Of a stretch of DNA of 64,000 nucleotides, positions 1 to 61,271 are shown piece after piece (within the stretch, counting starts at the first letter, position 1; every line of letters begins with the position of its first letter). Made by a program: the position numbers and the translations under genes. This DNA comes from Neelides folsomi (Eukaryota; Arthropoda; Collembola; Neelipleona; Neelidae): assembly GCA_034687125.1 (NCBI GenBank), contig JAQGBZ010000128.1, positions 62,001 to 126,000 of the forward strand, written 5' to 3'. The notes beneath the pieces are model-generated. The model had not been told where the DNA came from, made no database searches, and saw only the letters and a list, made by a program, of their open reading frames with translations.

Positions 1-465
<465 letters not shown>

Positions 466-4412: not shown

Positions 4413-6192
4413 TTAAGATTTCTGTGAGAGAGCGAGGCCGGCTTTGGAGTTAGTCTTTCTGTCTAAAACTTTGCAAATAAAGTCAGCGGCAAGTAAAAGT
4501 TTCTTAAGGTCAACTCCAGTTTCGATTTGCATCCCTTGAAGCATGTAAACAACATCTTCTGTCGCCACGTTTCCACTTGCTCCTTTAGCATAAGGACATC
4601 CTCCCAATCCTGTAAAGCATAATTAGAATTTTCTATCAAAATCGTGTTTTTATTTTATGTATTTATTTACATTGGTACAAGTTAATATTGTACCTTATGT
4701 ATTTGAATAATAAATATTTTATAATTAAGTTATTAAAAATACCAGCAACGGATGAATCAAGCACAGATATTCCCATCTGAAAAATAAAGACTTTTGTAAT
4801 TTTGAGAAAACATAAGCTATAATTAACAACATAAGCTTTTCAGATTTAATAAACGCATATGCTCCTTTATAAACCAAATTCTTTTTAGTGGAGTATTAGT
4901 TAACAGTCGGACCCCATAACCATACCATGTTTAGGAGTAATATAATAGTGTGAAGAAGAAATGAAATATTCCATGTTTAAAGTTACCTCTAAAGCGGTTA
5001 AGATATTAGGTAGAGCCTGTCCGTAAGTATCATGACAATGAACTGCAACGGCCTCAATGGGTAATTGTTTGAGAACTTCTTCCAATACCGCTCTCATTGT
5101 TCCAGGGGTTCCAACTCCGATCGTATCGCCAAGTGAGATCTCGTAACAGCCCATGTCAAACATTTGTCGAGCTACTTTAGCCACGATTGTAGGCGATATA
5201 ACACCTAAAATTATTCAAAATTGTAAATTAAAATTCTGTTTACAATTGGCGAGAAATAAGATAGTATTTAGTTATTTAATATTTTCTAAAGATCTACTTT
5301 AAAATATTATATTCGAACCTTCATATGGGCAGCCACAGACGCATGAAATGTAACCGCGAACTTTAATTCCTTGTTTCTTCGACAAGCTCATCACCTTTAA
5401 TTAATTATAAATTGATATTATACCTAATTACTTTCATATAATGTTACAAAGTTATAATTATAATGTTGAAGTCAAACTTACATCATGAAAGCGATTAAGG
5501 GATTCGGCAATGGAACAATTGATGTTCTTTTGACTAAAGGTTTCAGAAGCAGCTCCAAATATAGCGATTTCTTTAACACCGGCTCCAAGCTTAATGAAAA
5601 ATAAAAATAAAAATCATGTTATAAATAATCGGATAACATACAATTTAATCTATATATTAGAATATTAATAAATGTTTAAATAGGTTTGGTTAGTGGTGAT
5701 TTCGGGAGTAAACTTACAGCAGATTCAAGACCCTTCACATTAGGTACCAAAACAGGATAATCGACACCAGATTTCTTTTCTATTTGGCTAAATACTTTGG
5801 CATGATCACCCATCTGAGGAACCCATTTTGGTGAAACAAAACTGAAATATAAAATATAATAATTATAAAATAAATAATCAAGCTAATTGAAATTTTGGGA
5901 TAAAATTAAAAAAATTAATATACGAGTTAAAATCTTACCTTGTCACTTCAATGGACTGAAGACCTGTCTGAGAAAGTCTGTTGATAAATTCGACCTTATC
6001 TTGGGTCGAAACAAGGTTGGATTCATTCTGGAGGCCGTCTCTTGGGCCAACTTCCACAATCCTCACTCTTTTGGGGAATGCGGGTCTCGAGATCTGTAAT
6101 GTTTCCCATTCATTCCAATTTCCGACCGGCTCAATGAGCGAGTAGATTGACACTTGCGAGTTGTTATTAGATGCGTATCGGGAGCGTGACAT
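4413..6192 (-). CDS. HMGCL: Hydroxymethylglutaryl-CoA lyase, mitochondrial
   Basis: Cleaves HMG-CoA to acetyl-CoA and acetoacetate, the last step of ketogenesis and leucine breakdown, in the mitochondrial matrix. Seven coding exons: 6192-5939, 5841-5718, 5589-5482, 5394-5319, 5204-4987, 4776-4743, 4609-4413; phases all agree and give 336 residues (human 325). Visible active-site elements: [12 protein letters not shown] with R51/D52, HCHDTYGQ with metal ligands H243 and H245, and the family signature [11 protein letters not shown] with catalytic C276, followed by GASGN (N285). Numbering is offset by exactly ten from the human enzyme from R41 onward. No peroxisomal -CKL tail. The ATG at 6192 is the first in-frame one in this exon, but the N-terminus it gives (about 40 residues with several acidic ones) is a poor mitochondrial presequence; see the upstream exon at 7065-7254. 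Confidence 0.96.
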
Positions 6193-6234
6193 TTTAGCAA
6201 AGCTTGTCAAAAGAGTTTCAAGATAAAGAAGAAA

Positions 6235-7064
6235 CTGATAATAAACACACAAAAAGGACAAACATTCAAAATGGCAATTCGTAAAAAGCTTAGTATTCTA
6301 CAAAAAAGTGTAATGATGTAATGAATGAAAGTGAAAGATTAATAAATCAATAACATTGAAAACACTATTTATAAATTAGGTCAGATACGAGCGATAAAAT
6401 CTTGAATATTCTGTCTATGGTTTATCAAATTTTTAAAGTCTGATATTGCAATTATAAGTTTAATGAGATAAAATATTGAAATAAAACGTAGATTCCTGAA
6501 TTTCACAATGACACAATTTTATAAAGACTAGACAAAATATTTATGAAACAATAACTATTTATGAAATATTTTTCTTTGTTTAAATAAAGGATAAATAATC
6601 TTGGTCTAAAGGTCAGTGAAATAACGGAACCAACGAGTCCAATTTTTACATCACAAGAAAGTATAGGTTATTCTTGATATTGTTAAATTTTAAATTATTA
6701 TAAGCTCATTTGCTACCTGAAAAGATTAATAAAATAAAATGTGTGGATGGATTTTATTTTAAACCCAAGCTGAACTTATTTGGAGATCAAAGTCAAACAA
6801 ACATAGAAAACAAAAAACAGGGCTACAAATGGCCAAAACTTAGGTCATGCACAAGAATGTAATTTAACTGTTAAAGTGGATCGAACACAAATTGTTAGTA
6901 GCCCATATGCAATATTGAAGCTTGAACATTTTATAAATTTTTAAATCATTCCTTATTCCAATGCACAGAAAAGTTAAGTTTAAAAAAATAAAATATTTCG
7001 GGTTTTGTAGAAAAGTAATGTAAAAATAAACTTAATTCACATCCACTTAATTAAATTAACTCAC
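6235..7064 (-). other. Probable first intron or 5' flank of HMG-CoA lyase
   Basis: Either the intron joining the candidate presequence exon to the main gene or plain upstream DNA. AT-rich, with no other coding signal seen. Confidence 0.4.
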
Positions 7065-17865: not shown

Positions 17866-19620
<1,755 letters not shown>

Positions 19621-21916
19621 ATGGGAGATTTGAACGCTCTTTGCGAATTGATTGATAACGACCCGGACTGGTCATCTGATGAAGAAGATCCATTTGCAGT
19701 GTTGGCTCAAGGTCGAGATCATTCATATTTTTCCTCGTCGAGTTCTTCAACTTCTAAGCGCCCTACTTCAGAAAATGAGCCCAAATTCGAAGAAATATTT
19801 GGAACTCCAATTTCGAGAACATCTAGCCAAAAAGGTCCAGGAAGCAGTTCAAATCCTACCAGCCGATTATCGTGCTTTGCTTCTACAAGTGAAAATGGAA
19901 ATAAATCCACTGCAACCAAATTCAATACGAATTCGAATTATAAGGAAGAAAGAAGCCTTGTGATACTCGAACCCTATTCTCGTTTACGACTCTTCAGAAA
20001 GACTCTTTCCACAACCTTAAATCAAGAAGACTATTTGAAGACCAGAAATGACCACACGTTCCTTTCACTTGAAGTCGTCGGTAGTCAGAAACAACTCGAT
20101 AAAAAGAACTTTTGGACATGTGGAGCTCTTGTTAAAAAAGTCCAAGGATCTCGAACAAGCGCAAAAGGGAATTCCTACATCATTTGGGAAATAAACGATT
20201 TGCGTGATTTGAAAAAAAATTGGTCAGTTTTTCTTTTCGGAATTTCTGAATCAGAAATGATTAACATTCCAGTTGGAGGTCTCGTCGACCTTATAAACCC
20301 AATGGTAATGGATGGGAAAGATAAGAAACTCTCTGTGAACAAACTCTCCCAATTGAAATATATAGGGAGTTTAAAAGATTTTGGATTCTGCCAATCAAAA
20401 ACAAAAAATGGGGATGATTGTCCAAATGTTGTGAATCTCATTGACTGTCACGTTTGCATTCATCATGCTCCAAAAGAGCAAAGGAAATTGAGCATGAAAA
20501 CTGCAGCAAAAGCCAAAACTGCTGTAATCAAACTTCCTAAGCAAATGTCTGAACCATCTTTGCAGAGTATAAAAAAGAATGCCCCTGTCACGAAAAATTC
20601 AATTGCGAATGTTCGGATGGAACTTCAAGGAGCTTTTGTGACGACTTGCAAGAGAAACCCTTTAAGTTTTGGAAATCATGAAAGTATTAAATTCAAGCCG
20701 GACACAGGGAGTTCGATTCTCCAACTTCCAAAACCAGAAGAATATAAAAGAGAACCATTGAATTTAAATCCTCAGACCACTCGCCATTTATCTGAGAGTG
20801 ATAGGAAAATTCTTGAAGCCTTGAGAGCCTCTTCGAAAACAAGTGGACCAAATGGACCTGACCTTCCTGAATTAATCGCAGCAACTCCAACAGCCGGATC
20901 GAGAAATTTTCTTCATTTTATGAATAAAAAACAAGAAGCAGAGGCCAATGGGGGTAAAGCAGACGAATCCAAGTTAAAAATGAACAGCAGTCCTAATGTA
21001 TGTGTGATGAATCGAGCAGCATTCCAAAATATGAAAAAGGCTCTAAGCTTTGTAAAAACAGTTGGGCCTATAAAGAAATTGAATCCGAATGAAGTTTCTA
21101 AAACTAAAAGAAAATTGTCCGACGACCCGAAGGAATCTCAGGCCAAAACCTTGAAGCTGGAAAAGAAGAAAAGTAGCGGAATTGAAATAGAGTTTGGATT
21201 TGGGGATGATGTAAAAGCCATCATCAATGCAAAATCCAGGCATGAAGGGTTTGCCGAAGAATTGCAAGAAGCTGACTATTTTGAAAAAATGGAGAAGAAA
21301 GAAAGCGTTGAGAAGAAAATGCTTGAAACTTTTTCTGTTCCTACAAAAGCCGTCGTTTGTCAGATTTGCAATTATGTCGCCACTTCCCAATCTGATTTCT
21401 GTCGAGAGAAGATGCATCCAATTAAATGTGTTAGAGCCATGAAGAGATTCTTTAAATGCAAGCATTGTGGTAATCGTACAATGTCATTGGATCGACTTCC
21501 TAAAAATCGTAAGCTTTATTCCTTTAACTTTTAGCAATTTCATTGTTATCTTTTATGCAAACCTCAATTACTCCTCTTTATTTAGTAAAATTTCGAATAC
21601 CCAATAAGACCCAATTGGTTTATTTTAATACCTATTATATGTACATACATACTTTACAAGCATAATGAAGAATTCAATTAATCATATTTCGTACGGATAT
21701 TATATAGCATTTATCATTTGGTTTGGCATTCCGTTTAATTGATTTTAATGATTTTTAATATTTATTCCAGCCTGCACGAATTGCAAGAATTCCATTTGGG
21801 AAGTGACTTCGATGGGAGTGGAGCGAAAAGGTCCTTTGCTTCCTAACGAAACTCTCGCTATTCGAGGAGACGAAGAAAAATTTATTGGATCGGTAACTGC
21901 TAAACTTGCCCTTTAA
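19621..21916 (+). CDS. MCM10: DNA replication initiation protein MCM10
   Basis: Nuclear replication factor that binds ssDNA, MCM2-7 and polymerase alpha and activates the CMG helicase. Two exons: 19621-21508 and 21771-21916, phase 1, 677 residues. The N-terminal 110 residues are acidic and Ser-rich. The conserved OB-fold begins at about residue 117 (PYSRLRLFRKTLS), followed by FWTCGALVKKVQGSRTSAKG. The internal CCCH zinc finger is at about 255-283 (FCQSKTKNGDDCPN, CHVCIHH). A Lys-rich linker leads to the C-terminal zinc ribbons from about 577: VVCQICNYVATSQSDFC, FKCKHCGNRT, then from exon 2 PCTNCKNSIWE and KGPLLPNETLAIRGDEEKF, the usual MCM10 end. Exon 1 alone would lack the last Cys pair. 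Convergent with the membrane-protein gene; AATAAA at 22181. Confidence 0.96.
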
Positions 21917-45200: not shown

Positions 45201-48200
45201 CCAATTTGAGGTACTCGTGCTTGAAAAGAAATGAGTGACTTATGGTTTTACCCATAATAGCTATAAATTTTTAGTCTACCTTGGCTCATACTAAAACTTG
45301 GCATTTTTTGTATAAAAATGAGAATTTGCTTGTTAGGAATGGATTGATGAACAAAAATTAAAATTAATTGAGGAAATAATTGCTCGGTGATTTTGTTCCA
45401 TTGTATTTAGTTTTACATATTAAATATGCTGATGTAAAGAGTAAAAGTTTTGAATTTATGAAGGAATTAAAGAGATTCAGTGGAGCTGAGGATTGTTTGC
45501 AAATTAACAAGTTTCCTGTAAATTATTAAGCGAGAGAGAAGGGCCATTGAATTGGGTTGAACTGCCGATCAAAAAGTAAGGAATTAAGGATTCAACGACT
45601 TTGATAATAAATAGTGGAAGTTGACCCAGAGAGATGATGAGAGGTGAAAGGATGATTATATCCAAAATGCCTTGTGTTCTCTTCCTAACTTGCACTTTTC
45701 ACAAGTTCATGGGTCCGATGAGTTATTGTGTTGAGACACGTAGAGATTATATAGGAGGAGTCTTCCGCCAGTTTTCACTTGTGCATTCTAAATTCCTCTT
45801 TAGTTCTCAAAGCCGGTTTCTCCTTTGCATAAAATATAAAGTGTAGTTGATATACGCGGATTGCACAGAGTGGAAATCAGAGGCAATTAAAGGCGCCCCA
45901 TCCCCCCAGGCTCATCTCTTTCATCCTCTCCTCCTATACCATTCCTATACTCATTTATCCCATGTGGATATAACCAGATATATCCAAAATACATTTAATT
46001 GTAAAGTATTCGGGCTTCAATTTCTTTTTGATCCAACAGAAAGTAATTATGGTTACCGGATCGGAGTGTCTGCAGATGCGGCAGAACCAATGCAATTCCA
46101 CCACCCACATTACTACTACGACTCACTTCAGGAGGAGACAGAAGAAGTGGGCTACAGACTCCCACGTCCCTCAAATGACATCCCGCCTTCGCTGGACATC
46201 GATGACCTCATAAGGGAAGAGGTGGATGCAGCCGTTGGGTATAAATACTCAAGACCAACATCCACAACAGAGGGATACAATTACCCAAAGCCGACGACGA
46301 CCCCTTCGCCCAAAGGATACACATATCCAAGACCTGGCGTCGAGGATCAATTTTCAGTGGATGAAGTCACAACTAATAGAGAATATCCAGTAACAAATCT
46401 TTTCAATTAAATATATGCTTATAATAACCCTTTGAACATTTAAGGTATGTAATTATAATTATACTGTATATGTATATGCACTGTATATTGGAGTTATCGA
46501 GCAATAAGAGAATCAATCAGATCTGATGTATTAAATAATACATAAGCTAATAATATAATCAAATGAAATTTTATTGAATGATTTTAAAACTTGAGTTCAT
46601 TCAGTATGAAAATTTGAAGTTTTAGTTAAGATTTAAATAATTAAATAAAGTAGATTCAAAAAGCATATTGGATTCGGGAGGAAGTATAGTTTAATTCGTT
46701 TATGTGCTTAACTGATAACATACCTGTTTATAAAATACCGCCACTTTTCATCAAAAGATATGCCTAAAGGGTTAAATGGGAAATTATCTTTTCTCAATTT
46801 TCCCTTTTCACTTTCTTTCACCTGGTTTCTGCACACCTGCAGTTTGAGAATTATAAATACTGATCCACCACTTCCAATAAAATCCAATAATTTAAATCCA
46901 ATAAATTGATTATTAACCAAAGTGTGTGTCAATCTATGCAGGATGCTGGAATTCCCGAAGTCGGATTCGAGGACCCTACGACCATTCGAGCTTTAAATTA
47001 TGAAAGCGAGGAGATCCAAGCTGCCGGAGGTCTCGAGCCGGAAGAACCAGTTTTTGAAGCTCCCGTTCAAAAGAGTAAACAAATGATCGTGCAACCTTTG
47101 CAAATTACAATATATTCCTATATTTATGGTCACTATACCCAATTCCCCTCTGTGAGGCTATATCCTCAGTGGTCAATGGGTGATGGGTTGATGGGTGCTT
47201 TTAAAACTACGCAATTTGGAACAATCACATTATGTATTTATTCAGTATATCAACAATGTATGTATTTTTTACAGAGAAAGTGAAGCCTCACTATGATGAA
47301 TCTGACGACGTTTGGCCTGATGGATTCAAGGGAGTAATTCCTGGTGAGGAAGGAATTGACTACCCCGCGTACACCGACATCCCCCAGACCTCTTTTGACT
47401 GCAGTCATCAAGAATACTCAGGCTACTATGCAGACGTAGAAACACGCTGTCAAGCCTTCCATGTTTGTCTCAACAGAGCTCATCGGTCCACAGTGGAAAA
47501 ATGGTCATTCTTATGTCCCAATGGGACAGTTTTCAGCCAACAGGACTTTGTCTGCGTCTGGTGGAATATGGCCCCTCCTTGTGACTCAGACACAACTCAG
47601 AGACTTTACAGTCTCAATCAAGCCCTAGGATGGGACAATGAACCGCCATTAAATATAAATATCAAATCAGTGATGTCCTCATTGGTGGAGCAGCAATTGC
47701 AAAGCATTCCCATCAACCCACAATCGCTTCCAACTGTGTCAAGACGTCCGCGACCACCTCCGTCCCAACCATTTACTAAAGTCCAACCACCGAACACCAA
47801 TGCTAAAATCTCATCTAATGCTATCCCGGCCAGCTTCAATGGTGACCCGAGGACGAAGGCTAAACTTCCTGCTTCTACAATCCGGACTGTTAATCCTCCA
47901 TTTAGCCAACAATTAATTGCATTTGATGTCGATACAAGATTGTCTGAGGAAGCCAGGTCGAAGAGCAAGTCCCAGAGTGCATTGAAGAAATCCAAGTCGG
48001 AGGCATATGAATTGAAAGGATTCCCCCAACAAGGCGCAGCTCCTCTTATTGTGAACAGATTTAGGGCTCCTACAACGGAAGCCTATACCGAGTACGATGA
48101 AGACACGGAGGTTCCTACTGTTGTAATGATGCCAATTCAGCAAAGATTCCCTGATGGAACTCAAGCCCTTGTTGAAATGCCTGTTGTTATGATGCTCCCA

Positions 48201-51200
48201 AGAAGACCAAATTACGATGATTCAACAGAATCCAATGAGGACAATTCGAGTGAGAATTTACCAGATCCCAACTTGGCTTATCTTCCTCCTAAAACAACAA
48301 CAGCGACGACGACCACGACAACTACGGAACCCCCAAGGACGACGTCAACACCTGGCCCGAAATATCTCCCGCCGGAAACGACTACAACTACGCGGAGAAC
48401 AACTACCACTATGGCTCCAACTACCACAATCCAAACAACGGAACTACCAGTGGAAGTGGTAACAGAGGAAGAGAAATCTCCTGAGTATGATGTAGAACCC
48501 GAAACTCCTCCATCTGTAGCTCCAGAAATGGAAACGGAAGTTGTGACGGAAAAACCAAAAAATACTTATTTACCGCCAAAACAAGTAGAAACTGAGAAAC
48601 CATCTGGAACATATCTCCCACCCAAATTAGCAAACCAGGAGGAAAAACCCTCAGGGACTTACCTTCCTCCAAAACTCCAACAAAGACCAAGAATGTCTGC
48701 TAAAATGATCTCCGCTGCATATCTTCCACCCAAAGAAGAAGGAAAAACCTCAGCCAAAATCTCAGCTTTATATCTCCCACCAACCGAAAAGCCTAAATTA
48801 ATGTCAGCTAAAATCTCTTCAGCTTATTTGCCCCCTAAAATGGAAGATAAATCTCGTTTGATGGCTGCCCAATCCCCTATGTATCTACCACCAAAACTTG
48901 GAGCCCAAGTGGAGATGCCCAAGCCGACATATCTTCCACCACAAGACGATCCAATGACCACGGAAATGAAGGCCGAAGAGGAGGAACAAAACAGCGGTTC
49001 TTATCTCCCACCAAAACCTCCACAAAAACCTAAAATGGTTTATGGCCCGCCGACGGGTGAAAAACCTGAAAAGTTGAACTCCATTAAGCAAATGAATATT
49101 GCTAGGATCAAAAATCTTCGTTTGCAAAATGAGCGGGAGTTGATTCGGGAGCTACTTGGGAATTCTGGGATTGAAGAGGATGTTGAGGATGGGAAGGAAT
49201 TCACTTCTTTTAGTACCAAGAGCCGAGGGAACGAGAAGGAGAGTGAAAAGGGCGGTGAAGGGGTCACTGGCGGATATGAGGAAGGGGTCACTGGAGGATA
49301 CGAAGAAGGAGTCACAGGAGGATATAGTGGGAATTCCAATCTTGGGACAAAGAGTCAGTATTACAATGCTAATGTGAGGATTCAACTTGAGAAGAAAAAG
49401 AATTTAGGAGCCAAGTTGGAAGAAATCAAGCCAGAGTATATTGATCTCCCTCAAAGTCCGACAGTCAAATCTACTGGTAATTTATAATTAGTAATATGCT
49501 AGTTATTCTAGTATAGTTAGATTATAATGAAAGTATTTATTTCTAATGTACCATATATCTTTTTAAAACGGAAAATAGACCAAATATATCTGTATAGTTT
49601 TAATTTTAACATCGTGAATTTGAAAATCCTAAAAAATTATATTAAATGGAATTTTATTCATTTTTTTCTTTTTAGGTGTTCCAGGAACAGAAAGTTTACA
49701 AGCATTCCTGAGCACTCAGAAGAATTTGGACAATAAGCAAACATTAGAAATATTCCAATTTGACAAATATGCTATATTTGTTCCAAAGGAAAGCCAAAAA
49801 GAGGGAAAGCCTTCCCAGTCGTATGGACCTCCTCAGAATAATGAAAATCAGACTCAATCAGCAGCTCAAATTCAAATTCCGAATAAACCAAGTGGACTTT
49901 ATGGAACGCCACAAAAGGACTTTTCTCCTCAAATGCCAAATCCACCCCAACAACAACAACAACAGCAGCAGTTAAAACAACAACAGCACCAACAGCAGCA
50001 GCAACAAAAAGTTCAAAGACCAAATGGTAACTTTGCCCTCCCAAGCAAAGAATTTAGCGAAGCTCATCGATTTTCACAACAAAATGGTTACAACACTCAT
50101 CCACAATTCGACCAAATAATCTTTCAAGAACCATTAGCTCAAATTTTCACTCCAGCTCCCATTGTCTCTCAGGTCTATCAAGGGCCTCAGCCATTTTACA
50201 ACAGTCCTCCAATTCATAATCAACAACAAGTTGAACAGCAAGGGTATCCTCAACCACAACCACCAGTTCAGCAGGGATATCCTCAAACTCAACCTCCAGT
50301 TCAGCAAGGATATCCTCAACCCGCACAACCTCCACCGCCTCCAGTTCAGCAAGGATATTCTCAACCTCCACAGCCCCCAGTTCAACAAGGCTATTCCCAA
50401 CCTCCTGTTCAACAGGGATATTCACAACCACCAGCTCAGCAACAAGGCTATGAACAACCTCAACATCAGCAACAACAAGGATATCAACAACAGCAACAAG
50501 CACAACCTGGATATCAAGCTCCTCAACAAACTCCAGAGCCAGGTAGACAAGTTTTGTTCCAAGGAAGAGAACCAAGTTTTACCCAATTTGCAGCTCAACC
50601 ATTTGAGCAACAACAAAATGGCTACAATGGTCCACAAGAACAAAAACAACCAGATCAAAATTACGGATCTCCTCAGCCTACACAAGGATATGGACAACCA
50701 CAAGATCAAAGACCTCCTGGACAATATTTACCACCACAGCAACCAACACCAGTTCCTAGTCAAAATTATGGCCAATCGCAGGCCCAACAGCCAGGACCAA
50801 ACTACGGAGCTCCTCAGTTAACTCCTGGACAAGGCTATGGACCAAGCGGCCCAACCCAACAGCCACAACCAGGTTACAATTCACCTCAACCTCAAAGACC
50901 TCATGATGGGCCAAACTTCATCCAGCCCATTCCAGTTGATCCAAGACCTCAAATAATCCTCCCAATCCCAACAGTTAATTCACAGACGTTTGCTGTCTCT
51001 CAGCCCCAACAAGCTTTCTATGGTCCTCCTCAAATACAAAATGTTCAAACGACCCAGCCAGCAATTTACCATCAACCCGCTCAGATTCAAAATTTTGTTC
51101 CTCATGTTGTAAGACCTCATATTCCACAAATATTCCCAAGCCCTCAACCACAACAGCCAGCGTACCAAGCTCCGAGACAAGTCCCGAAGAATCCTCATTA

Positions 51201-51990
51201 TCAAGGAGCGGTTCAGAATTTTAATAATGTTAACAAGCAACCTCAAGTTCATCAAAATGGCTATCAACCCCCACAGTTCAATATTCAGCCACAAGAATAC
51301 TTTGACATTTCTAATGCCAAACCTTCAAAACCAAGAAATCCCCAACATCAAAATAACATTCCTAAATCTTCTTATAGACCTAAAGGAACTTCGGATGTTC
51401 AGATCATCCAGGCAATTCCGGTTCATCAGTCAACTTCAAGCCATCAACAACAACAGGGTGGGTATCAGAATACAAATAATGGTTATCAACAACCACAACA
51501 GCAAAAACAGCAAAAACCATTTGTCAACAATGGTGGATATCAAAATGAACAATTTGGAAATGGAGGCTATCAGCAAAACGGAATAAGAGCTTATGGACCA
51601 CCACAAAACAATCACAATCAAAATAACAATCATTATAATCGTCCTCAGGCTATTCGACAAATGCAATTTCAACCGATCCAACACCAACAACCTGGGAATA
51701 ATTATGGGCCGCCTAGACCAACGGGAGGATATCAAGGGCCAACCAATGGACCAAATAATCAAATACCATTTAGGCAACCAAACTCTCCCCAGAACCTTGA
51801 ATTGTTCACCAGTGAAGATGCAGTGAGGAATAATCACGGACAAAGACACAAAGAAGCAGTTTCCAATTTTATTAGAGATCAAAATGTCAGAGGAGGAACC
51901 AGAGGAGAATTGGAAATGGGTCATGAAGTTTTCTATCCTGGGAAAGATAATTCTCTGGGAGTTTCCCTCACCTATGATTCAAAGGCATAG
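39252..51990 (+). CDS. Giant CPAP1-like cuticular protein with one chitin-binding domain
   Basis: Five exons: 39252-39321, 46040-46389, 46942-47074, 47275-49476, 49676-51990; phases 1, 0, 1, 1 agree; 1689 residues. Exon 1 is a signal peptide (MRLASFPCFLWISFLQLTSG). Exon 2 has Tyr/Pro motifs GYRLPRP, GYKYSRP, GYNYPKP, GYTYPRP. Exon 4 contains a peritrophin-A/CBM14 domain at residues 222-290 with cysteines 227, 243, 249, 265, 278 and 287 (spacing 15-5-15-12-8), then a Thr-rich mucin-like stretch, eleven YLPP repeats and three EGVTGGYE repeats. Exon 5 (771 codons with stop) is Gln/Pro/Tyr-rich with polyQ and repeated QQGYSQPP/YGPPQ units. One CBM14 domain plus long low-complexity arms is the CPAP1 architecture of arthropod cuticle; the domain should bind chitin and the arms probably cross-link or self-associate in the extracellular matrix. 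Specific orthologue not assigned. Intron 1 is 6.7 kb; intron 2 is 552 bp. Confidence 0.9.
39322..46039 (+). other. First intron of the CPAP1-like gene (6.7 kb)
   Basis: Donor GTAAAA after the signal-peptide exon, acceptor ATCCAACAG before exon 2. It holds the foldback repeat at 43138-43321. A 129-codon antisense frame near 44100-44489 has no supporting features. No further exon found, though an alternative small exon cannot be excluded. Confidence 0.75.
43138..43321. repeat. Inverted-repeat element (MITE-like) inside an intron
   Basis: Arms 43138-43190 and 43269-43321 are reverse complements over 53 bp with about three mismatches; the arm begins TATACTCTATTCCATTTGAG. The 78-bp middle has a smaller inverted pair (TCAAATAA/TTATTTGA). 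Total 184 bp. High arm identity suggests a fairly young foldback element. Its sequence does not resemble the hairpin at 10.2 kb. Confidence 0.85.
49257..49328 (+). repeat. Three tandem 24-bp coding repeats (EGVTGGYE)
   Basis: Within exon 4 of the CPAP1-like gene, three head-to-tail 24-nt units encode EGVTGGYE, EGVTGGYE and EGVTGGYS. Third positions differ between units, so they are not brand-new copies. Confidence 0.9.
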
Positions 51991-54900
51991 AAAACATTAC
52001 CAACAATTTAATTTAATACACATATTATTTTCATTCTAGTTTAATAAAAGGTGAAGAACAATGCACATTACATTATAAGCCCATGAAGCCTATTTTGACA
52101 CAAATATTTTGAGATGGCTCTCCTAAGTTGTATGAATTATTTTTATAAATGATGGAGATCACTTGTTTCATATTGAATATTAAATTAGGATTATTGTATA
52201 AAGTATGTTAAAATAAGGAATCCAGCTATCATATTTTCCATCCACCTATACTTCTGTTATAATTACAAAGAAAAATCTGTGGAAGCTGAATCAAAGTGAA
52301 GAAAACAATGTTTTAAAACAAAACAATTTTTGAATTTTATTTAAACTTTATTTTTAACATAATATTTAAACGTGAATTGTAATATTGTAAAAAGCATATT
52401 TTTTATTATTTGTATTCTTGATCATAACTGAAAAGTAAGAGGCCAAATTCAATTTTAATTCTTGATCTTCCGAATAATTATCTCTTGATATACTAAATTG
52501 TATTTTGTAAAATATAAATTTAATTAATAAGTTTACTGTATGTTTGACTTGTTAGATTTTGTTTAAAATGAAATTAATATTAATTCCTCAAATATTTTTA
52601 TGAATGATATATCCTTGAGAGTCTTTAGTATTATAGCCTATTGTTGTTAAAAACTTTTATTTCAGATACTTTTTATCAAAGTACAGAGTTTTGAAAATGA
52701 ATAAATAAAAAGTTTATAATTACCTAACCATTATTATTGCACTTTAATTTTATTTCAAATGTATTATTGATCAATTAACTGCTCGTCTTAAACGAAAAAG
52801 TTTTATTCGGAATTTAATATTTTATATTTTACATGCACATTATATTTATTTAACATCATTGTCATTATGGCTCTTTCAAAGCATAATTTTAAATTATAGT
52901 ATGTACAATCCACAAATTCTTTGCCATGAACTAATATTTACAAATATATTGAATGTAATTACAATATAATTCGATAATATATGTAGTACAATACATTTCT
53001 GGTAGAATGTGATATTAATCCTTCTTCATTTAACAGTAATTCTTTTTATTACAATTTTACACAAAGTAAATGTTTTAAGCTTTCGCTATTAATTTTGTGG
53101 TTTAAAAATGTGTTTAAGTTTAATTATTCATAGGATATCCGAAAAGACCCGAGCATAACGATTAACGAAATCAATGAAAATAAACATACGCTAACTATAA
53201 ACGTTTATCATGACTGACGCAATTTTTACCCAATAGACATTTTTAGTTTTTAGAATCCATTTTTATGTATTTACCATATATATATAATAATTATTTTATA
53301 TCTACGTTATCATATAATAATATATTTTTATACATTTAAAAATCACTTATTATAATTCACTTAGCTAATCTGAATTCATTTTTCCTATAAATATTTCATA
53401 ATACTTTTCATGTAATCCTGATTCACAACAATAAACTACTTTAACATTTATTAACATTTATTCACATTCTTCAAAATCTAAAGTAATTATTTTGATTTGA
53501 TAAATATTATAGATATATTATATTAATCATAAGATCATTGCAATATTAAATCTAATGATTCACACCTTACTTAAAACAGTCAATAGTGATTTAAATACAA
53601 TATGCTAACATATTCAATTTAATCTCTGACTATTCAATATTTTAATCCAATGTTTCATTTACATTCAGTTTCAAAAAAGAAACTTAAATTGGGCCCTAAT
53701 TATTAAATTGTAATATTATAATGTGCATGAATTCTTCATATATTTCATGAATTTATTCATACATAACAAATATAAACAATATGAATTTATAAGAAATATA
53801 AATATTTATTTAACAATAAAAACAAATTAAATATAATATTACTTAGGTATACTTTAACCTTTAAACAGAAATACTGCCTATACATGATATAATAATTCTC
53901 AATAATTTGTATATATTAGAGCATCCCACATACGTAATATTGACATAGACTAGAAAGTGGATTTAGTAGTTATAGCCTTTATATGTATTTAATTTAATAT
54001 TCTTGATTTTTACAGATCATCCTAATAGGTATTATTATATATTGTGCAATCCTTTACAATATTTAATATTTAACAAAATAATATATTGTGCAGATAATAA
54101 AATTTAATAAGATTCATAAATTCACTAATATGCACATTCAAATATTTGGATCAATCACACAATCTAATTTCATTAGCTATTAATTATATTGAAAAATCTA
54201 TTATTTTAATAATTACAGATATATACAAGGTAAATTTTACATACTTACGCTATATGAAATTATCAATCTTAAAAAATAATATAATTATTACTAATTTTTA
54301 GTAAGATGTTTTTTCCTAAATAAAGTAAAAAATAACCTAAAAAATAATTTAGTAGATAATTTTTTAAAAGCCTAGCAATTTGGTTGAACATTCACAATCA
54401 TACCTTGTATAGCATTATTTCTCGGGTCAATTGGATTTAACTAATATTTATGATGCTAATCTTTAGATCTATATATGTAATATCTACTGTGAATACATTT
54501 AGGGATATTTACACATTAGATTACTAATATTAAGTATACTTATTTTACAATATAAAACAAGTATATTAGAAATTGAAGTAATTGTAAACGTCAACTAATG
54601 AATTTGATTGTTAATAAAATATTAATTATTTTATCATTGTAATTTCCAAAATTAATAAATTGTAGCGTATAATTTTATACACGATACATTAGATTAAATA
54701 GGAAAATGATAGGTTTAATGTGTATTAATTAACTATATTTTCTAAATGTGTGTAGCTTTTTAAGTAAGTGCAGTTTAGATTTAGAATTATATTATTATAT
54801 AATATAACTTAAATGCACAAGTTGAATATGTAACAAATATAGCATGTTTAAAAGATATTTATCATTCCAAAATGTAAATGAAAGAATGATTTGAATAAAA

Positions 54901-55104
54901 TAGGAAAAATAATTAAATCCATTTCCTCATTACTTATTTTTCCATAAGATAATGTATAAAGTATTCATGTAGGTTGGGGACTCTTAGCATGTTATTCTTA
55001 TTCAAATAATGAAATAGCCTCTTACTGTAGATGAGATTCAAAATTAAAAGTATTTGTAAAGTATTTGGTGTATTCCATGAGTTTTTTGGCTGGTTTTCTT
55101 TTCT
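51991..55104. other. Very AT-rich spacer between the convergent cuticle and DH44 genes
   Basis: Starts with the 3' UTR of the cuticle gene (AATAAA at 52043-52048) and should end with the 3' UTR of DH44. The interior is dominated by TAATA/ATTTA low-complexity sequence with no coding frame. Confidence 0.6.
52043..52048 (+). terminator. Poly(A) signal AATAAA for the CPAP1-like gene
   Basis: Canonical hexamer 53 bp after the TAG stop codon. Confidence 0.65.
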
Positions 55105-58100
55105 TTATCTTCGTTTTCCAATATGCTTGAGAATTTCGTCATTTTTCATTATTTGATGATGAGATTGCCGCATTCGTCTTCGAGCAATTTCCATTAAAAG
55201 CCGTTGACGAAGAACATCCAGTGGATTCACGATTGAAAGAGAAGGGCCCGTATTTCTTTTATGACGGCGAAACTACATCCAATTAATAAAAGTTATTGGA
55301 TTTAATATTGAATTATTAGAGTTTTTCTATTAATTTGAGCTATCCTTATAAATCGTAAAATAAAAAGACATCCTGCTAAAAAATTGAGAATTAAAAAATA
55401 AAAAGTTTTGTTTACAATTAGTTTATATTTTATTTAAGACATCGTCATCAACAATCTACATAATTTGTTTGTACAAATGCAAATATCGGTATTTTAATGT
55501 GCATGCATTAATATTATGTAGAGTAGTTATAATTTATTATTACATATATTAAGTATATGTATCTAATACTAGATAGGTACAAAATTTATTTATTTCTTCT
55601 TTACATAAGATTTACATACTAGGTATATTGGCATTAGAATTTATAAATTATTGTATAATCCTCATCCTCACTTTGTATGACAGTGAAAAATAAATTTTTG
55701 GGCATAAAGATATGAGTTCAATCACTTATATTGAAATTAAGGCTAAATTGATTATTAACGGAGGGAATGAATAGACGCTTCGCAATGTCATTATCACACA
55801 ATTTTGAAATATTTCTTAATAATAAAGGTTCTCGGGATGATATGTTTTTTGTATATACTTACCTTAATAACTATTTAATATACATTAGGTAATACATGAA
55901 CTTCAAGGTCTATTGTTGTACATTGATAATGAAAGGCAGGATAGTTATTCTTCAAAATGTTTGATATTAAAATGATTAGTATAGAATAGAAAATGATTGA
56001 TTACAAGTGCTTCATTACTTGGAAAGAATGTTTATTTTGGGATCTTTTCTCTCTTGTTCTGAAGAATATCATCCTAGCGCTACATCTTAACAACGTTGCT
56101 GGTAATACTCCAATTATTTATTATGTAAAGTGTATCGTTTTCTCTTTATTCATCTCATAGAATGCTTTCTTAGCCACAGAGAATCAATATTTTTGCTACA
56201 AAATACTGAAGCTTAATTTATTTTTCTCATTTATTTTGCATATGTGCCGTAATACTTTTATTATGATGATAAATGATAACATACATTATTTAAGTAGGTA
56301 TACATTCTGTACATAAACATATTTAACTTTATTGTTCATATGTTACATATCTCAGAGCCTTTGATAGAATTGTTATAAAAAAACTTTTGTAATTCAATTT
56401 ATAATTCCATAAATTGAGAGTACCTATTGTATTCAATATTTTAATGGATACATAAGGAGAATAATTAGAACATTTGTAATGTTTTGTTAAACAATGAGGA
56501 TAAATTATGTGCAGAAATACCTTACATAATTAAATATTTGAATGTTTCTGACAAATTGTGGCTTTGTGATTGAGTGATGTAAAATGCCGGAGACGGTTTT
56601 AATTAATAGAAATATTAGGCATGTTAAGGACTACAACTATACTTGTATAATATATTGGATATATGAAAGTAATATAGTGTAATGCCAAATATAATAAAAT
56701 GATTGGACATTTGGAAAAGCGGATAATGAATTTTCCCTACCTGTTGCATTCCAGGACTCCTTTTCCATTCTGTATAGACGTAGAGATGGGGATCGATGAC
56801 CGTTTCCCACTCCGTTCCATCCAATTCGTTTTCTCCCTCTTCGTCTGCGTACTTTAATTCAAATAACCGAAATCGATATCAAATATCTGCTATTTAATAT
56901 CATAATAGCTATTTATTTTATTCAAAAGACATCTGACCATAATTAGAATTCTTTCATTGCTTAATTTTAATTAATAATTGGATTTTTTGCATGTAAGATT
57001 TTAATATTACATATTTCTCTATTCCATGAAATATCATGTTAACCTCAAATAACAATTAATGAAACCGAACGCAATATTTTGTAAATTGATTACTTCATAA
57101 AAGGTCATTTGCAAGATTGCAAGCTAAACAAAGAATCATTGTAATATTAATAGTTAATTAATAATGAAAAACAATTTAGGTTAATTTTAGATAGTCTCAA
57201 TTTGGTATTGGATTATCTCTCATTGCATCACAATCCAATAAAATCACACTTTAAAATGCAATGCAATTTGCGAAGAGTGTAATTGGTCGATTTGTGTTAA
57301 TCTGCTTAAATGTCTTTCGTGTTCTTTTTTACACGAGATATCTATCCAATATTATACCACAATACCATTTACTAAAAATGAATGTGAGCAAATATTTACA
57401 GTTCGCAGTTTGACATTTAGGTGTTGGGATCATAGTTTGGATTGGTGAGTGAAGGTTGTTCGGTCTTGCGTCATCAACTAATAATATTTAAACTTATATT
57501 GTTAGCAGAGTCGAATGGCAAAGTGTTCATTGAAGGTTTGATTTCCACAACTTATTTGAGTTTATGATCATAAACAACATTCAATAACAATTATTCTACG
57601 TGATTTCATAGTCTATTGCATAGAATTTTATAAGCTTTTCCTCATATATTCAATAATCGATCTTTATAATCATATCAGCGTCACCATTATAAACTCCTAT
57701 AAATTGGGTTCAAAATCCTTGACCAAATCGAAAACGTCTTATATGATGCGGAGTACGAGGGCTCGTAAATCCTTTCAGGATGAGAAATGGGGTTTATATT
57801 CCAAATCTCTTACAGAGGCGTGGAAAAGGCGCTTTTTGCCTTCTGATTGATTCCGCCAATCCTTTCTGCTTGATACTTCTCACTTCAATTCCCTCAATAG
57901 GGAAACTTTCTCATATGAAATTGTTTTGTGTCGAACTGCGGGGGTGAATGTATGGGCCTGGCAGGATCACTTTTGACAAATAGGATAAGGAGGACCGAAG
58001 AATAGATCAAATTATGGTCTTGGTGGGGAGCATTGAGATTAAAATGGCCGGCCTACCTTTCCAATCTTTCCAGTGTCCAGGGACTCGATGATTGGTTCGA

Positions 58101-58293
58101 GTTGAGTCCGAATGTTGGTGAGTTGTCCAGGTTGTCCGAGATCTGAGGATTGTTGAGGCTCTTGGAGTCGTCCGAAGGGAACCGCCTCCGTTGAGGACAA
58201 AATCAAACCCATGAAGAGGAAAACTCCAATTCGAAATCGATGGGGAGAAGCAAAATTCTTAATAATTTCTTTTTCTTTTCCCATACTTTCCAT
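55105..58293 (-). CDS. DH44: CRF-like diuretic hormone 44 preprohormone
   Basis: Precursor of the CRF-related diuretic hormone, a neurosecretory peptide that raises cAMP in excretory tubules via DH44 receptors. Three coding exons: 58293-58057, 56851-56741, 55272-55105, both junctions phase 0; 171 residues. An N-terminal signal peptide spans about residues 20-37 ([19 protein letters not shown]). Exon 2 encodes an acidic spacer ([17 protein letters not shown]). Exon 3 contains the cleavage site HKR, then a 45-residue hormone beginning [20 protein letters not shown] (its middle [14 protein letters not shown]), ending EILKHI, and then GKRR, i.e. amidation glycine plus dibasic cleavage and stop. 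The core is almost identical to cockroach, locust and termite DH44. Start: ATG at 58293; a second in-frame ATG at 58284 is possible. Two upstream non-coding exons are predicted. Confidence 0.96.
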
Positions 58294-61271
58294 GTTGTGA
58301 TGAGTCGTGAAGAAAGTTGTGATTGCTCAGCCCGGTCTTTTCTATCTGCCAAAGAAAGAGATTTGTTAATCTCATCTTCCCTCTATTTGAAAAGATGAGT
58401 AAGATCGGAATATTTGAAGGATATTATTAGTTAGCATAAAGGATATCCACGAAGGAAAAAAAACTGTCGGACCATTAATGCTAGTCCTGTGAGTTTGGAC
58501 TAACCAGGATAATAAAATGCATAGTTTTTGGACTCATCGCGTTTACCCGATAACTTTTCATCCTTCCTGTGAGTGTGAGTGAAGTGTGAAGTATTCAAAT
58601 GGTTGGGAATTGTTCAAATATCTATTGACTGCAATGACTCTCTTCTCATAAATATCCTTCTGGAAAGGAATGGGAAAACTTGAGGTCTTCCAACGAGAAC
58701 GACACTCAATTATATACTAAACTTAAAATTTATTATGCAGCATAATATTTAGATTTTATGTAATTCATTATTATGTGTTATTTGTAGATATGTGTAGTAT
58801 TATAATATGTGGTAGTATGGTATATTGTGTAATAATACATAATACAGTATAAAGATAATGCATTCATTCTATCTTACGTATACTATTTAGAATTTTAGAG
58901 TAATAACGAGGATAATGTCAATCAAATACTTTTGAGATTGTGTTAAAATTTAATTTAATTAGAACGCGTTCGAAAATTAAAGTTTTATTTTTGAAACGAT
59001 TTTATTTATGCAATTTACCTGTAGTGTATATATTCTGTTATTTTTTATTTCATTCTTAATTATTTTTAATGCATACAAAAAAATTAATTGGTAAAGTCCA
59101 CAATATCAAAATTAATTATGTAAATGTTTGAATTAATGAACTATGAATATTGAATTTATCGCTCGCATATGCATATGCTTAACTACATAATACATTGAAT
59201 CAATGCTTTATTATTATTTGATCAATGATGCTGTAAATCTTAGCCTTACCAGGCTTTGCATGTAAAACTATAAATTATGATTAATTTTTTCTTAATGCGA
59301 TTAAAATATTATTATCTTCAATTGGGAACATCTCTTAAATGTTTGTTAAATTGTAAATAGCTAACATGTAGAGGGTGGCGCCACAGAGTCTCCTCATATT
59401 TTCTTTTGCCCTTTATTTCACTATGATGGTGCAAATCCGCATGATTAAGAAATTAAGATACAACTAGCCATAAATTAAACCCATTAAAGATAAGTTCAAT
59501 TTCATGCTCATTTGATTCCTCTCGATGATCTAATAAAGGAAATAAATAGGATTGTGGACTTTGCCTTTCTAATCTTTCAACTCTAATTGAATCAAATTAG
59601 AACTTTGAACGCAGTGAAGGAAGGGCAAACGAAAGGGTGAAGACAAAAGTCTCTTTTCCAATTGATTCCTTCGAATCTTCAATTTAAGTAGTTATTTATC
59701 AACTGCCTAAATAGCTATGTATTTAATACTGTATATTTTTTATAATAGTTTTTAAGAAAGAGAATCAGAATCAAATACAGAATCTAAAATGAAATCAGAA
59801 TCTAAAAAGAGTTTTATGAAATGATCAACACTTAATTTCATACACGAGCTAAATCTCCAGCTAGCTGATGTAAATCTGATATTTGTATCTCTCCAACGAG
59901 TTTGAATTCTTTAAATTCCTAACATGTATTCTCTATGTACATGTTCAAATATTATTCTGGTTTGGTAAATATTTTATTTACCGATTATTACCAGATATGT
60001 GCGTATAATACATAGGTATTAAGGCATTGACGAGGCCTATTATGTGTTTGTGGGCACAATTCTATGTAATATTAAATTGTATTTTAGTGGTTTTATTGAC
60101 TAACAATAAATGTAAGAATCATAATGAAATAAATAGAATCAACAATATTTAACCAAAATAGATTGATGAAGCGATTCTCTGAAATATCGAACGTGATTAT
60201 AACATTTAACATAGACCGGGTTTGACTTGGTTTATTATTCTAAGAAGATGGTGAATATTTAATTTTGACCATTAATTAAAAGTTTCATAATGCCTCGTAA
60301 ATACTTATATGGTAAGTTCAAATTTAGTTTCATTCCTTCAATGCATGTACCGACGAGAGCAATTGTTCATACAAATATCGCAATCTGTTAACCCTTACAT
60401 TCGTAAGTAAACCTTTGAATTGGGTTATGAATCAAAATTCAGAAGTGAGTTGAAATGGAAAATTGAAGAAGTTAAAACGAGACTATGGGGGTTCCTTTGT
60501 GGGAGAATAACTCCAAAAGTTCTAACTTACCTCAAGTTTCAAAGTGAAAATAAGGAAGATCCCTTTCATTTTCATATTAAATTTAATACCGTATCGTAAT
60601 ACCGTTTCATTTTATCGAACCCACGAAATATAACAAATGTACATATTATAATATTATCTTCCTTCACTTTCAACAAATAGTCTATTAACTTTATTTTTCC
60701 TTCAACTACTCAATTTCAAAACTCAAGATACTCTTACTCTTGAGAATAAAGGACATTTGTGTGGGTGAAGTGGGTGGGTGGTGTCTGCTTCATTAAATTG
60801 TATGCTAACATTATACCTGTATTTATTTGAACTTCAAATTTAACCGTTTTCAAATTGATGCAGAGGAAGACAAGAATGAGTTTATGAAAAGAAAGTCTTA
60901 AATATTCCTTCCTCTGTGTGTTCAGTTTACATATACTACAATAAAGCAACCGCATTTGTTAACTTTCATAAACAAAATATTCTCTCATAAAATGTAATAT
61001 TATCAAAGTATAATTCTTGGGTGTTGGATGACAAAATGTCGGATATCACATTGCACCTTGAAATGGAAATTTAATACATCGCAATTTCACTCGTTTTGAC
61101 ATTTTAAGATCCTCGAAAGCATCTACGTACGAAAGATCCTCGTAAATACATATTTATATTTGGTAGAATGTAAAATGAAATAAGAACTTTTCACTCCAAA
61201 ATCATTCTTTGTATTAAGCATATAAATATTTGTTAAACAGTTCTCTCTGTCGTAAACTTAAATACATGTAC

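Follow-up and report, generated by a model that had tools for sequence, protein, structure and literature searches.

The window, a stretch of 64,000 nucleotides, carries a gene of three coding exons that we assign, with little doubt, to the diuretic hormone DH44, a CRF-like peptide. The animal is a small pancrustacean and in all likelihood a springtail. Genes for DH44, an arthropod neurohormone related to the human stress hormone CRF, occur throughout the arthropods, and the intact gene described here adds an insect-like case, together with its exon structure, from a compact genome. The more novel part of the analysis is a separate second CRF-type gene on another contig (C230) of the same assembly, and the same genome encodes candidate receptors for hormones of this family.

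Gene structure and precursor

The features of both genes and of the neighbouring loci are listed in Table 1. The preliminary description had placed a complete DH44 precursor in three small exons, and its coordinates and junctions proved exact: both introns are of the GT...AG type, the phase is 0 throughout, and the joined exons encode a precursor of 171 residues that ends at TAA with no internal stop. The hydrophobic maximum of exon 1 was 2.85, with the core at residues 22-32, as judged by hydropathy. Basic pairs, counted in the sequence, are located at residues 109, 118, 121, 147, 148, 169 and 170 of the precursor, and those at 147-148 form an RRR within the hormone itself, which would have to remain uncut. 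A single copy of the hormone is present, with HKR before it and GKRR after it. The earlier figure of 45 residues is obtained by counting between these two sites, and the predicted cleavage sites and amidation signal likewise stand. A Gly donor follows the hormone and a PHM-like exon is found elsewhere in the genome, and the C-terminal amide is predicted on this basis.

Table 1. Location of the DH44 gene, the second CRF-type gene and the neighbouring loci. Positions refer to the window unless a contig is named.
Feature	Position	Strand	Description
DH44 exon 1	58057..58293	-	237 nt, 79 codons, phase 0, ATG at 58293, donor GTAGGC
DH44 exon 1 content	58057..58293	-	putative signal peptide (hydrophobic core of 11 residues, 22-32) and start of the propeptide
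DH44 intron 1	56852..58056	-	1205 nt, GC 0.32, GTAGGC...AAAG
DH44 exon 2	56741..56851	-	111 nt, 37 codons, phase 0 on both sides, donor GTAGGG
DH44 exon 2 content	56741..56851	-	acidic spacer peptide (opening 12 and closing 10 residues noted); skippable in frame
DH44 intron 2	55273..56740	-	1468 nt, GC 0.25, GTAGGG...TGTAG
DH44 exon 3	55105..55272	-	168 nt, 55 codons and TAA, phase 0, preceded by TGTAG
DH44 exon 3 content	55105..55272	-	FRRHKR (6 codons, 55272-55255), hormone (45 codons), GKRR (55119-55108), TAA (55107-55105)
Mature DH44 peptide (predicted)	55120..55254	-	45 residues (N...I), predicted C-terminal amide, codons counted from exon 3
Second CRF-type gene	contig C230 9748-10236 (L002 1495-1983)	-	two exons, leader peptide, Gly-stop end
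Second CRF-type gene, junction	contig C230, exon end 10081, next start 9915	-	GTAAGT donor, ...TTGTAG acceptor
Neighbouring locus	97-465	-	GTP_EFTU (EF-1-alpha by eye)
Neighbouring locus	5935-6297	-	HMGL-like domain
Neighbouring locus	17866-19026	-	rRNA adenine dimethylase domain
Neighbouring locus	19600-21534	+	MCM10 domain

The length of exon 2 and its phase 0 on both sides mean that skipping would keep both the frame and the hormone. The gene might accordingly yield two transcripts, one of them lacking exon 2, that differ in the spacer but share the hormone; alternatively, the 111-nt segment might not be an exon at all. Exon 1 can indeed be joined directly to exon 3 without a frameshift, the acceptor ahead of exon 2 is purine-rich, the second CRF gene has two coding exons as read, and two exons are described for beetles outside Cucujiformia in the available part of PMC6585902. 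What argues against these possibilities is the GC content of exon 2, 0.49 versus 0.25-0.32 in the introns, and its codon score, which was trained on six frames of the window and reached 23.8 in frame, higher than all the 135 stop-free 111-nt windows of the introns (maximum 14.2). The codon score, however, misses the true frames of the other two exons, since exon 3 scored 6.2 in its true frame and 19.4 in another, and exon 1 scored 33.0 in its true frame while a reverse frame interrupted by 5 stops reached 40.1; it therefore reflects mostly composition and is weak evidence. Use of exon 2 is suggested by composition and codon score only, and we consider the alternatives to the three-exon gene unlikely, though not negligible.

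Family assignment

CRF (PF00473) was the sole Pfam family matched by the precursor at E ≤ 0.001 (E = 4e-14, 52.8 bits, cut-off 22.1), with positions 1-38 of the 38 in the profile covered, and exon 3 alone gave E = 2.9e-15 over residues 10-51, in agreement with the family identity proposed earlier. When the CRF profile was run over the assembly (75,104,828 bases, 840 contigs), three candidates were scored and two of them matched at E ≤ 0.001; the window exon was the better match (E = 5.8e-13, 55.5 bits), and the other, on C230, scored 27.7 bits.

The presence of this second CRF gene leaves room for the view that the window copy is a degenerate, unexpressed pseudogene and that the C230 gene is the working hormone. 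This is very improbable, because the window copy is intact, with no stop or frameshift, retains its processing sites and is far more conserved by the two profile scores given above. Mere chance similarity of a short ORF can be dismissed as refuted: although such frames are common, with 130 stop-to-stop frames of at least 25 aa overlapping positions 54000-60000 in the window ORF listing, so that the 55-codon exon that holds the entire hormone is, as had been remarked, not distinguishable by length, the Pfam E value of exon 3 and the occurrence of just two CRF matches at E ≤ 0.001 per 75.1 Mb speak against it.

Scanning the window for Rfam families and for tRNAs gave 0 matches in each case, the exon 3 peptide had no sequence match in the PDB at E ≤ 10, and a search of the literature for the peptide strings returned 0 papers. 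An AlphaFold model of exon 3, built from a two-row alignment, consists of a flexible N-terminus and one helix at residues 16-52 of 54 (mean pLDDT 81.8, pTM 0.46). A flexible N-terminus with a single helix is the usual shape of the CRF/DH44 family. The hydrophobic moment was not significant for the window peptide, for which the observed value was reached by 672 of 2000 shuffles, nor was it for the core of the C230 peptide (1725 of 2000) or for Macrobrachium DH45 (1080 of 2000).

Comparison with known hormones

The window peptide had been described as close to cockroach and locust DH44, and this likeness agrees with the insect peptides: 35/44 aligned residues are identical to Periplaneta DH44, 29/43 to Locusta DH44 and 28/42 to Drosophila DH44. 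A core of 17 residues followed by (L/M)EIARR is common to the window peptide and to insect DH44, and a single hormone copy, basic cleavage sites and a C-terminal amide, the last of these predicted here, are further points of likeness with insect DH44. In contrast, the final third of the window peptide, a segment of 16 residues, differs from insect DH44. Macrobrachium DH45, a 45-residue amidated peptide of the same family according to the accessible part of PMC4449106, is identical at 18/45 residues, and krill CRFLDH56, also of the same family and partial in the accessible part of PMC3749230, at 17/41. By these comparisons of primary structure, the window hormone resembles insect DH44 and not the decapod peptides.

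In beetles, the hormones DH37 and DH47 are two CRF-type hormones from one gene, produced by alternative splicing of the hormone exons, as given in the available parts of PMC6585902 and PMC8040626. The present animal resembles this case in that two CRF-type hormones are encoded in one animal, and differs from it in that the second hormone is located on another contig and has its own leader exon. No further hormone exon of the beetle style was found in the window gene, the CRF matches being two genome-wide, and when the C230 peptide was searched against the genome at E ≤ 10, all three matches fell within the same two CRF genes. Derst et al. (PMC4770511) surveyed wingless hexapods, Collembola among them, and the available part of their survey counts CRF-DH among the single-copy peptides and does not include it in the list of genes found duplicated.

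A second CRF-type gene

Exon A of the C230 gene (MEKL...EHDY) contains a hydrophobic leader, exon B encodes 55 residues that end with Gly and then a stop, and the frame over the two exons is intact. The exon scored 29.8 bits against Pfam CRF and the joined precursor of 107 residues 27.5 bits, at a cut-off of 22.1. A phase-0 intron ahead of the hormone exon is common to the C230 and window genes. When the two hormones were aligned, 17 of the 45 columns were identical and 4 of the columns were gaps; SLSIV-PLDVLR is common to both, and little else. The C230 hormone has no basic site directly before it, the nearest upstream being RRK at residues 36-38, and a cut after the RR would give a product of 69 residues. 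We therefore filed this gene as CRF-like, not as DH44.

The GC content around the C230 gene was 0.313, similar to the 0.325 of the window. A segmental duplication linking the two loci was considered and rejected, since blastn with 9,001 bases round the C230 gene as the query found nothing in the window at 1e-3. A limited search of the open-access literature turned up no springtail described as having a second, separate CRF gene.

Candidate receptors and processing enzymes

The class B receptor family gave 25 exon matches at E ≤ 0.001 in the assembly, two of which are located on contig C315 and three on contig C775. We read C315 and C775 as two genes, and their frames differ at many positions. 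Four class B loci (C315, C775, C24 and C125) were typed, the first two with exons picked by eye, so that the two of CRF type are a minimum. Against the PDB, the C315 exons matched CRF receptor 2 best (143.5 bits, versus 87.8 for the best non-CRF receptor), and the C775 exons matched CRF receptor 1 best (144.7 bits, versus 98.2). The two exons used as controls point elsewhere, the one on C24 to adhesion receptors and the one on C125 to the calcitonin receptor. The front extracellular piece of the C315 query lies outside the matched stretch (27-241), and the corresponding piece of the C775 receptor was not found. By these similarities, at least two CRF-type receptor genes, candidate DH44 receptors, are encoded in the same genome.

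At the family level, convertase P-domains gave five matches on four contigs. An exon on contig C158 is PHM-like, with 97.8 bits to peptidylglycine alpha-amidating monooxygenase. The presence of both makes the processing route plausible. The copper type II monooxygenase C-domain as a whole gave 45 exon matches on 20 contigs, of which the exon on C158 was typed as PHM-like and one on C56 as dopamine beta-hydroxylase-like; the other matches, left untyped, suggest that the family has expanded.

Assembly and neighbouring loci

The mitochondrial contig (C742) is 15,157 bp long with a GC content of 30.9 percent, and cox1 was identified on it by Pfam. The order cox1, trnL(UUR), cox2, in which trnL(UUR) and cox2 were named by eye, is accompanied by I-Q-M and W-C-Y blocks, a gene order that we take to be the pancrustacean ground plan. 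ARAGORN named 21 tRNAs on this contig and left one unassigned; trnN was not named. COX1 had one match in the assembly, so that nothing hints at DNA from another animal. A mite, which the small genome had first suggested, was rejected: the genome yielded no intradiol dioxygenase, which speaks against spider mites, and the position of trnL(UUR) between cox1 and cox2 speaks against chelicerates in general.

The assembly, at 75.1 Mb, is small beside springtail genomes of 157-393 Mb, which counts against Collembola; it may represent a very compact springtail, be incomplete or belong to another taxon. The springtail values, taken from partial texts of the sources, are estimates of 157 and 196 Mb and sizes of 273.69, 362.37 and 392.8 Mb.

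A CCAP gene was also observed, on contig C2 (from 595059; L039 around 1560-1660), where GGKSKR-TFCNAFTGC-GRKR predicts TFCNAFTGCa. The mature peptide appears to be interrupted inside a Gly codon by a 53-nt GT-AG intron that was chosen by eye. The pattern used for CCAP is unspecific, with two matches versus three in the backwards control, and its second match, located on C4, does not represent a CCAP; the identification of the C2 gene depends on the flanking KSKR and, after the by-eye splice, GC-GRKR. The pattern PFCNAF(S/P/T/A)GC had 0 matches in the genome and would miss an intron-split gene such as this one. In the available part of PMC4770511, TFCNAFTGCa serves to illustrate the distinct substitutions of the collembolan peptide, and together with the mitochondrial gene order it makes a springtail with a small genome the best reading. 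A tadpole shrimp (Notostraca) was considered as well: the length and GC content of the mitochondrial contig fit this group (PMC6537178), as does the genome size, and the gene order is compatible with it, but the collembolan form of CCAP speaks against it, and a branchiopod is therefore less probable.

In the window, the exons with GTP_EFTU, HMGL-like, rRNA adenine dimethylase and MCM10 domains are housekeeping neighbours of the DH44 gene. A region on the forward strand (45847-51990) includes a CBM_14 chitin-binding domain in the frame at 47205-49487, downstream of which long open frames contain YLPPK repeats and stretches rich in Gln and Pro, and our guess is that the whole region is one cuticle or gut-lining gene. 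The 123-residue frame at 932-1303 on the reverse strand, which is of odd composition, had no Pfam match at E ≤ 0.001 and no Rfam match.

Discussion

In the route that we propose for the window hormone, signal peptidase would take off the leader, a prohormone convertase would cleave after HKR and at KRR, with the basic residues trimmed afterwards, and PHM/PAL would convert the C-terminal Gly to an amide on Ile45. Neurosecretory cells would then release DH44 and class B1 receptors of CRF type would be activated; activation of such receptors raises cAMP, and in transporting epithelia this would shift the secretion of fluid and salt. To our knowledge, springtails lack Malpighian tubules, and the target of DH44 in a springtail would therefore be another organ, such as the labial nephridia, the ventral tube or the gut. 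Expression of DH44 and a function in fluid balance in this animal would be expected by analogy with insects. In insects, DH44 is known to act on fluid balance by way of such receptors, as stated in the available parts of PMC3961327 and PMC8040626.

Taken together with the receptors, the two ligand genes can be read, tentatively and at somewhat less than even chances, as a two-ligand, two-receptor CRF system, in which a conserved DH44 and a strongly diverged, N-terminally extended CRF-like hormone of at most 69 residues, encoded by the separate C230 gene, would be split between the C315 and C775 receptors. With the C230 gene, a ligand duplicated through the copying of a gene, as opposed to the exon copy in beetles, could be put to the test beside at least two receptors. 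If the two-ligand system is true and the animal is a springtail, the ligand pair would show the role of the hormone without its classical target organ, whether original or acquired. A comparison of both hormones in an animal without the usual renal tubules of insects could show which role is older, the control of fluid or that of stress and feeding.
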